Assembly: GCA_000827265.1 (NCBI GenBank)
Contig: KN834749.1
Span: forward strand, 795,500-859,499
Origin: Collybiopsis luxurians FD-317 M1
Lineage: Eukaryota > Basidiomycota > Agaricomycetes > Agaricales > Omphalotaceae
Reading direction: 5' to 3'
DNA: 64,000 nucleotides
Shown here: positions 4,410 to 6,669 of the stretch, piece by piece
How positions within the stretch are numbered: position 1 is the first letter of the stretch
Layout of the letters: each line of letters opens with the position of its first letter
The notes under the pieces: model-generated
Seen by the model: the letters and a program-made list of their open reading frames with translations, nothing else
Database searches by the model: none
Told to the model about the DNA's origin: nothing
Position numbers and translations under genes: made by a program

Positions 4410-6669
4410 CTATAATCTTCTAGAGAAGTCACCACTTCTTCCACCCGATTTTTTGGATACGAAAATTTCACCTATCACCATCTCTTTACCTGCGACAGCT
4501 TTGAGCATGTCCCAAACCGTAAGCAGGCCCACAGATACGGCGGTCAAGGCTTCCATTTCAACGCCCGTCTTCCCCTCACAGGTGACAGTGGCTTGACACA
4601 CGATGCTGTATTTCCACTTGTTTCGAGACTCTTCGACAGCTTCACAGCTCAAGTTGACATGGACATTTGTTAGAGGGAGGGGGTGGCAAAGAGGAATCAA
4701 ATCAGAGGTCCTTTTTGATCCCATTATGGCTGCCAATTGCGCTACGGTCAGCGTATCACCCTTCCGGAGGACCTTTTCTTTGGCTTTTTCCGACGCTGCG
4801 GAAGCTTCTTGAGGCTCGAAAGGATATGATGCAGATATCAGTTCATATGCAACCTTAGGAATCATAATTCGCCCCCTTGCAGTGGCGGAACGTTTCGTGA
4901 CAGTCTTTTCAGACACATCGACCATCGAAGCTCGCCCGCGTTCATCTATGTGGGTTAAACCTGAAGAGAAGGCCCGTGCATGTGGTGGGTGCATTCTTAA
5001 GGGCCTATTCAGCATATACGCGATATTATTTTGTAGTCGAGACACGCGGGGATACATCAGTGGTCCTACAAGGAAGGTATCAATGGAAAATGGTATGGAT
5101 ACAAGTTTATATACAGGAGAAGGGCACTCAACCGCCAATAAGTATCATAGGTCGATTAGAGATAACGTCTATGTCGTCCATATGTACATGCTTTTCTTGT
5201 TTTCCGGAAACTGCTCGTCCAATTATGTGGAGAAGATCTGAATCACCGGCGCCCTTGCGCATTTCATCACGTAGAGAGACCTCCTTTGCATCAAACAGGC
5301 AGACCTAGGAGATGCACAGTCAGTATATTTCTGACCGTGGCAGGGAAGACATAATCCTTACTTTGATTTTCCCGTCAGATGTAATTCTAAGGCGGTTGCA
5401 AGTAGAACAGAAATGGTCAGACATGCTACTGATAAAGCCAAATTCCCCTCGGTATCCTGGAATTTTCCAAGAACGGGCAGTATCATTCGCTTCATCGGTT
5501 ATTCGTACCACTGAATGTTTGGTAGAAATAGTCTGCAGCAAGTCGGACGAAGACACCATCTTGAATTTGTCCCACTTGTTTCCTGGGTGGGTCGAATTGA
5601 GGAGAATGTAAGGTTGAAGATATCATGCATATGCGTACCGGTGAAAGGCATGAATTCGATAAATCGAACCGAAACGGGTTTATCTTTCGTCATTTCGACA
5701 AAATCAAGGACCTCAGAGTCATTGAGCCCCTTGACTACCACAACGTTCAACTTAATCTTTTGCAAGTGAGATTCTAGAGCAACATCGAGCGTCTTGAGCA
5801 CTGCGTCAAGCCCTCGACGTTTTGTCATGAATTCGAATTTGAAAGGGTCAAGAGTATCTAAACTGGGCCTGAGTTCAGCATAGAAACATCGAACAAGGGT
5901 GGAAAAAATGACCTCAGGTTGAGATGAGTCAGCCCACTTTCCACGAAACCTGGTAACCGTCGATGAAGAGCAAGCCCATTGCTTGTCATGGCTATCGACT
6001 TGAGACCATAAGGGCGTAGGCTGTTCAGTCCGGCTGCGAAGCACACGATCTCAATTCAGAGGGACTTCAGAGAGACAGTGATAGCTCACCGATAATATCT
6101 GCAATGCCTTTACGGACAGTAGGTTCTCCCCCAGTCAATCGTATTTTGGTGACTCCAGATCGCACAAATAGCTCTGCTAGTCGAAGGACCTCATCGTCTG
6201 TCAAGATCTTCTCATTTGGCGTCAACTGGACGCCTTCTTCGGGCATGCAATAAAAGCCTATCGACGTATTTGAAACGATACTTGATGTCTTGAACAAGAA
6301 GAAACATACAACGTAAATTGCACCTTTCCGTCAATGATATGCGTAAATAATCATGTTTCCTGTTGAATGAATCTATAAGGGCTTCAGAAAACGGCCTGGT
6401 TAGATCGACAGCGTCGATCTTTGCCTGATACACAATGGTATCAATTCAGCTCTTTTTATCTTTCCAAAAGGCATTACCTGGGCAGCTCGTTTCACCTCAC
6501 TGGCTGAGGCGTAGCAGTTTGTGACGGTAGTGGATACAGTGCGTGAGTGCCGCCGAAGGGTAACTCGATAGGAAGGTAGCATTGTCGTAGAGTCCGAGAT
6601 CAGCGTCCGGTTATACGACCCATATCTCTGAAGATGACAGAGAAGGGAATGTGGCCGATTACGTATCAT
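4410..6669 (-). CDS. cnxABC: MoaA-MoaC fusion, cyclic pyranopterin monophosphate synthesis (MOCS1/cnxABC type)
   Basis: The gene covers the first step of molybdenum cofactor synthesis, GTP to cPMP. An Arg-rich, presequence-like N-terminus leads into a radical-SAM MoaA domain. The CxxxCxxC cluster (ERCNLRCFYC) is completed across an intron (6258-6309). It is followed by the LTGGEP motif, FIEFMPFTG, and the second-cluster motif FCSTCNRLR with a third Cys in VCLFD. The MoaA part ends in MILIGG. The MoaC part carries HPLPL, the catalytic D-M-x-K (VWDMLKAV) and the C-terminal SGGRSGDF. An intron at 5066-5132 joins the two domains in one frame; if it is kept, a TGA directly follows Gly-Gly. The first ATG is 6669; a second at 6582 would also give a mitochondrial-type N-terminus. 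Predicted length is about 600 aa. Eukaryotic MOCS1 works in mitochondria. Confidence 0.9.

Follow-up and report, generated by a model that had tools for sequence, protein, structure and literature searches.

A junction intron in the MoaA-MoaC gene of the mushroom Collybiopsis luxurians holds two readings, a MoaA ending in Gly-Gly and a MoaA-MoaC fusion

Introduction

How does a fungus that encodes MoaA and MoaC in a single gene obtain a MoaA with a free C-terminal Gly-Gly? This free end is needed by MoaA, as in human MOCS1A and bacterial MoaA. The Aspergillus nidulans gene cnxABC is described as a fusion, and an earlier note on the DNA studied here states that the fungal cnxABC gene is usually described simply as a bifunctional fusion. 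That description overlooks the intron-retention switch of Neurospora crassa nit-7, reported in 2020 (PMC7232280). According to the accessible text of that paper, NIT-7A is active and arises when an intron is retained, the product after splicing is a fusion whose A domain is inactive, and the retained form rises under nitrate-inducing conditions. Growth on nitrate required both the A-only and the fused forms; the combinations A+B and AB+B did not behave like wild-type. The same text reports that NIT-7AB deprived of its N-terminal signal remains in the cytosol and that import of the full NIT-7AB is followed by loss of the A domain signal and release of NIT-7B; it calls the double glycine functionally relevant. 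The switch itself is already published for nit-7.

Other systems offer partial parallels. Human MOCS1 also has alternative forms that are MoaA alone or a MoaA-MoaC fusion, but the gene has ten exons and the forms arise by alternative splicing within exon 9, not by retention of one short intron. In human MOCS1AB a targeting motif lies upstream of MOCS1B and the protein is cut at position 432 in the matrix, which frees MoaC, as given in the accessible text of PMC9607355. The mitochondrial processing peptidase is described as cutting tandem precursors internally, yeast Arg5,6 being an example. Arg5,6 is likewise a two-enzyme precursor, yet both its products come from one precursor and there is no splicing switch.

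Here we analyse the MoaA-MoaC gene of C. luxurians FD-317 M1, which lies in the window, a stretch of 64,000 nucleotides of contig KN834749.1 studied as a whole.

Results and Discussion

The gene and its junction intron

The gene runs on the minus strand from an ATG at 6582 to a stop codon ending at 4410 (Table 1). Its MoaA part is a full-length match to TIGR02666, with 357 bits against a curated cut-off of 284, and its translation carries the cluster cysteines CX3CX2C (CNLRCFYC) and CX2CX13C, a motif definition taken from the accessible part of PMC5352715. The MoaC part matches PF01967 with 155 bits (cut-off 27) and TIGR00581 with 158 bits (cut-off 141.5). In the whole genome of 64.26 Mb there was a single MoaC match and a single Mob_synth_C match; Rfam and tRNA scans of the 64-kb window were empty. 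The public gene model P0001 (C. luxurians FD-317 M1, 688 aa) is 100% identical over the part searched, contains the spliced junction, and ends with 593 residues that are those of our spliced model. The 95 extra residues that P0001 places before the ATG at 6582 have low confidence in the predicted structure, and this extension may be a misannotated start.

Table 1. Features of the MoaA-MoaC gene and its junction (positions in the window)
Feature	Position	Strand	Description and basis
MoaA-MoaC gene (nit-7/cnxABC-type)	4410..6582	minus	8 exons, 7 introns, 593-aa spliced product; exons joined and translated
MoaA part, exons 1-7	5133..6582	minus	Radical_SAM and Mob_synth_C matches (Pfam)
MoaA exons 1-4	6582-6478, 6424-6310, 6257-6090, 6033-5913	minus	translation
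MoaA exons 5-7	5862-5639, 5582-5362, 5304-5133	minus	translation
Gly-Gly codons, GGC 5136-5134 and GGT 5133-5131	5131..5136	minus	sequence and translation
Junction intron, 67 nt, donor GTTGAG, acceptor TTGTAG, phase 1	5066..5132	minus	spliced in P0001
TGA stop, intron positions +3 to +5, used only upon retention	5128..5130	minus	sequence and translation
First ATG behind the MoaA stop (retained message), at a distance of 70 nt and in frame with MoaC	5055..5057	minus	possible re-initiation start, not conserved; translation
Exon 8, linker and MoaC domain	4410..5065	minus	PF01967
Linker of 32 residues from after Gly-Gly to the proposed cleavage bond, presequence-like	4968..5063	minus	composition and motif in relatives; low model confidence
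R-A-F-S-S at residues 406-410, with RAF/SS as candidate R-3 site of the mitochondrial processing peptidase	4962..4976	minus	motif frequent in relatives

The junction intron has its donor at 5132-5127 and its acceptor at 5071-5066, and its length leaves a remainder of 1 when divided by three. Of the second glycine codon, the last codon of MoaA, exon 7 supplies only the first G, as its final base; the codon borrows two intron bases, 5132-5131, which are at the same time the GT of the splice donor and the end of GGT. When the intron is kept, the frame gives a MoaA of 376 aa that ends in NRPMILIGG and is followed by the TGA; when it is removed, the frame reads ILIGG-PLMY and continues into MoaC, to a total of 593 aa. 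A free C-terminal Gly-Gly occurs only in the retained reading (ILIGG-TGA) and is absent from the spliced one. Thus, the sequence of one gene holds both readings, a MoaA ending at Gly-Gly or a MoaA-MoaC fusion. The coordinates and both junction readings given by the earlier note are borne out by direct reading and translation, the spliced one also by P0001. Among the six other introns, retention of intron 3 or of intron 6 would likewise bring a stop into frame.

Proposed mechanism

We propose that one nuclear gene with one small intron would supply two mitochondrial enzymes: MoaA when the intron is retained and, when it is spliced, MoaC as part of a fusion that would be cleaved in mitochondria. 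To this joint claim we assign a probability of about 0.8. Its basis is the sequence anatomy described above together with the protein ends and junction residues of relatives. We infer from Neurospora that both messages exist and that the fusion is cleaved in C. luxurians; RAF/SS is only a predicted cleavage site.

In the retained message the donor GT would complete the codon of the second glycine, with the three bases behind it acting as stop, and so yield MoaA (GTP 3',8-cyclase) with a free C-terminal Gly-Gly. In the spliced message the frame would run on through the linker into MoaC. Because the glycines of this fusion lie inside the chain (and many fungi even lose one or both of them), its MoaA half should be inactive, and the role of the fusion would be to bring MoaC into mitochondria. 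At RAF/SS, a candidate R-3 site 32 residues past Gly-Gly, the processing peptidase would probably cut the linker and free MoaC. As such a cut would leave these 32 residues behind the glycines, no free Gly-Gly could come from cleavage, and active MoaA would therefore have to come from the retained message. Gene models that contain only the fusion, as that of C. luxurians does, would miss the active MoaA.

Like nit-7, the C. luxurians gene would give a MoaA ending in Gly-Gly from a retained intron and a MoaA-MoaC fusion upon splicing. The nit-7 fusion is cleaved after mitochondrial import, and the same is proposed for C. luxurians. The architecture differs. In nit-7 a single intron of 237 nt (1460-1696) encodes the glycines, so that the nit-7 fusion lacks them, whereas in C. 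luxurians the intron has 67 nt and is one of seven, and its donor falls within the codon of the second glycine and itself holds the stop. For this reason the C. luxurians fusion keeps both glycines.

Junction residues in fusions of relatives

A donor GT placed behind the first G of a glycine codon leaves in the fusion a residue with a GNN codon (G, A, D, E or V), so the fusions of relatives carry a trace of the donor position. The position of stop and donor in relatives was deduced from protein ends and junction residues, and the counts that follow include related species and recurring genera, which are not independent. In ascomycetes the residue after RPMILI is of the GNN type in all 75 fusions found among the best 120 of 7988 matches (D 44, G 17, A 6, V 5, E 3; 58 are not Gly); the background frequency of these five residues is 32%. 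For basidiomycetes, the search centred on MoaC and the junction was considered (best 120 of 5921 matches), in which the regular-expression anchor was missing from 14 of 120 fusions in one pass and from 7 of 120 in the junction-residue count. In the 113 fusions where it was found, the first residue is G in 106, D in 5, E in 1 and V in 1; the 106 glycines say little, and the other seven fit a split codon. Of the 106 fusions that begin with G, 72 have G in second position, 7 have D, 4 V, 3 A, 1 E and 19 a residue of a non-GNN type; these 19 would require a donor in the first glycine codon. The simplest reading of these residues places the donor within the second glycine codon for many agaricomycetes, C. 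luxurians among them, and within the first one for other agaricomycetes, to which the 19 would belong, and for the ascomycetes examined. The earlier note had both glycines kept inside the fusion; this holds for C. luxurians and does not extend to other fungi that lose one or both of them on splicing.

The Lentinula and Gymnopus models P0010, P0015, P0019 and P0031 jump from ILI to the MoaC domain, omitting the linker and the cleavage motif; these skips are likely annotation errors.

MoaA-only proteins of relatives

A search for MoaA-only relatives limited by length, which favours such proteins, gave 110 of 120 proteins with an exact GG end (best 120 of 7657 matches), while the other 10 ended differently; because of the length limit, the search shows where MoaA-only proteins end and not how frequent they are. 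An ascomycete-centred search with an ascomycete-like query (best 120 of 7988) returned, besides the query, 119 proteins: the 75 fusions considered above and 44 shorter ones, of which 43 end exactly in GG. The chance of a stop directly behind a given codon is about 3 in 64. Judged from these protein ends, the placement of the stop behind GG exceeds that chance in both sets, although some MoaA-only proteins, for instance in Mortierella, may come from ordinary separate genes in which a GG end is expected. An alignment (A1) in which GG is invariant was discounted, as its 41 members had been chosen from GG-ending proteins and the result follows by construction.

The informative cases among the 153 GG-ending proteins are those paired with a fusion. 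When these proteins were compared with 182 fusions picked by a MoaC motif, both taken from the best-120 listings, 15 of the 153 matched a fusion at an identity of at least 95% over at least 85% of their length. Five belong to the basidiomycete-centred set (P0132, P0136, P0154, P0156 and P0176) and ten to the ascomycete-centred one, examples being P0132/P0011 in Armillaria (99.7%), P0156/P0106 in Pisolithus (99.1%) and P0136/P0076 in Suillus (99.0%). Several partner fusions lack the second glycine, with GS in Armillaria P0011, GA in Pisolithus P0106 and GD in Rhizopogon P0105, and those of Pestalotiopsis (P0257) and Beauveria (P0348) lack both; among the pairs listed, three keep GG (Suillus P0076, Paxillus P0096 and Apiospora P0248). 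Since the fusions P0011 and P0106 read GS and GA where their MoaA-only partners end in GG, the second glycine lies outside the annotated spliced frame there.

These proteins bear on the possibility that the intron is spliced essentially always, with the fusion as sole real product and the GG-stop at the donor as a relic or by-product. P0001 and the other relatives listed in the search centred on MoaC and the junction (best 120 of 5921) are indeed fusions, and the junction donor pairs with U1 within the range of the other introns of the gene. Constant splicing, however, does not sit well with GG-ending MoaA-only proteins in both the basidiomycete- and the ascomycete-centred searches, some of them 99% identical to a fusion, nor with the frequent lack of one or both glycines in fusions, nor with the requirement for both forms during growth of Neurospora on nitrate described in the accessible text of PMC7232280. 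We regard it as very unlikely.

A further question is whether the MoaA-only entries represent genomic DNA or unspliced pre-mRNA, so that no translated message stands behind them and retention is noise. Among P0121-P0183, 40 GG-ending proteins carry an lgn or jgi source tag, and for these we tabulated the site of intron 2. The site is not spanned by 23 of the 40, and 16 of these 23 start at a Met just behind it; these 16 could be genomic or partly spliced. Besides, intron retention is the commonest splicing event in Schizophyllum commune, according to the accessible text of PMC5034255. Against noise, the intron-2 site is spanned by 17 of the 40, among them P0129, a MoaA-only protein of 386 aa whose 1264-nt contig has no more than 103 nt to spare. 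For the fusion P0051 (366 aa) the remainder is 37 nt of a 1138-nt contig. As each nearly fills its contig, the two resemble cDNA, P0129 from a retained message and P0051 from a spliced one, and the contigs provide moderate evidence that both messages would be real in relatives. Noise also gives no reason for the large number of proteins whose frame stops exactly behind GG, and we consider it an unlikely account of the MoaA-only entries. The comparison with relatives, together with Neurospora genetics, gives good support to the proposal of the earlier note that retention would give a MoaA with free Gly-Gly and splicing the fusion.

The Met behind intron 2 (6309-6258), of MPSEG or MPEEG type, is the start of the 16 proteins mentioned, e.g. 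P0121, P0126 and P0136, and the Suillus-like fusions P0087 and P0090, which lie on short contigs, also start at a Met behind this site. Intron 2 may often be retained too, or the gene finder may pick that Met.

Donor strength and RNA fold

The junction donor has a predicted U1 pairing of -3.9 kcal/mol and is the second weakest of the seven introns, the other six donors having -1.1, -4.2, -4.3, -5.0, -8.1 and -8.3 kcal/mol. A weak donor as a built-in cause of retention was not established: one intron is weaker and two are close, so the junction donor is not exceptional. The RNA fold of the junction was no better than that of shuffles (z = 1.17). With an unexceptional donor and no special fold, neither of these features explains retention.

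The linker and a candidate processing site

R-3 is an established term for one kind of mitochondrial processing site, with its own consensus. The candidate site RAF/SS, predicted from the sequence, has an R at -3 and a basic linker before it. It fits the rule for the mitochondrial processing peptidase, an Arg at -2 or -3 of the cut behind a positively charged stretch, as given in the accessible text of PMC8835746. The motif R-x-[FYWL]-S occurs before MoaC in 58 of 61 ascomycete linkers (shuffle mean 7.1, maximum 16) and in 52 of 100 basidiomycete linkers (shuffle mean 12.4, maximum 23), and the strict form R-x-[FYWL]-S-[ST] in 31 of 61 and 48 of 100 (shuffle means 1.6 and 3.1, respectively); the shuffles treat linkers as unrelated, while several genera recur in the lists. 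These whole-linker counts used linkers of at least 30 aa, namely 100 of 108 in basidiomycetes and 61 from the 75 ascomycete fusions. The 108 were what remained of 120 basidiomycete linkers after 12 had been dropped, and a few short ones are parsing errors (e.g. P0003). When only the last 16 linker residues were considered, the motif was present in 44 of 108, as some motifs sit further up.

Composition agrees with a presequence-like character. The 108 agaricomycete linkers contain 16.5% R+K and 2.2% D+E, against 13.2% and 11.8% in the rest of the same proteins. In the part before the motif, 53 basidiomycete linkers have 2.1% acidic and 18.9% basic residues. The corresponding values for 58 ascomycete linkers are 2.3% and 11.0%; by these values the ascomycete linkers are poor in acidic residues and not strongly basic. 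The linker motif resembles an internal site for the mitochondrial processing peptidase. In the predicted structure of P0001 the stretch 452-510, which includes junction and linker, has a confidence below 50, in keeping with an exposed linker. The AlphaFold model gives no reliable position for the Gly-Gly tail (pLDDT about 54), and the structure of this tail was set aside as evidence, the model being of low confidence there.

The linker also holds the starting point of another route to MoaC. The retained message might be bicistronic, with MoaA translated first and MoaC made by re-initiation at the ATG 70 nt past the stop, in which case the fusion would be dispensable. This ATG is the first after the TGA, lies in the MoaC frame and would give MoaC a presequence of its own. 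Aspergillus cnxABC, which like the present gene holds MoaA and MoaC in one fungal gene, has been discussed as a bicistronic message (quoted in the accessible text of PMC7232280), and a trace of MOCS1B produced by re-initiation is reported for a human patient in that of PMC9607355. However, a Met upstream of the last 8 linker residues is present in just 40 of 108 relatives, and in the available account of Neurospora the combination of NIT-7A with NIT-7B fell short of wild-type-like growth, and NIT-7B by itself failed to reach mitochondria (PMC7232280). We consider this route highly improbable for C. luxurians, and as a general one it was rejected, the Met not being conserved.

The comparison suggests that the switch between a retained and a spliced junction intron is widespread in fungi. 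For the broader statement that throughout the Dikarya the 5' splice site itself determines the active form of MoaA, an invariant donor GT completing a glycine codon, with a stop within or just after the donor and a spliced-in linker that is an internal presequence with an R-3 site, the odds appear to us to be even. If it is true, one conserved intron would set the ratio of two matrix enzymes.

In the open-licence literature searched we found no account of the switch in basidiomycetes and none of a processing-peptidase-like motif in the fungal linker. The present analysis extends a switch shown experimentally in Neurospora to a mushroom and, by comparison, to other agaricomycetes, and it would explain how fungi with a fused cnxABC obtain a MoaA with free Gly-Gly, the glycine and the stop being partly or wholly inside an intron. 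What it adds, the stop right after Gly-Gly at the donor across many fungi and a candidate cleavage site, is worth testing. The linker motif in particular is a testable candidate for the release of MoaC, the site of which is not located in the accessible text of the Neurospora paper (PMC7232280).

Nitrate assimilation and cofactor clients

Induction by nitrate is shown only in Neurospora, and it may not be applicable in C. luxurians. In exon-wise six-frame profile searches of the genome, which can miss genes, neither nitrate reductase nor nitrite reductase was recognised. The four NirB matches were each below the cut-off and confined to model positions 59-277, and PF02738 (xanthine dehydrogenase type) gave none in the same kind of search. 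If the Dikarya-wide reading is true, the presence of the intron switch even in a mushroom seemingly without nitrate assimilation would make nitrate control a later addition.

PF00174 matches were found at two places in the whole genome, C3 and C17, with Mo-co_dimer matches close by, and no cytochrome-b5 match was listed within about 40 kb of either place. The clients of the molybdenum cofactor in C. luxurians may be mainly sulfite-oxidase-type proteins. At C17:682422-683834 the PF00174 (sulfite-oxidase-type) segment occurs twice in tandem about 1 kb apart, with unknown bases between the copies, which is perhaps an assembly artefact or a recent duplication.
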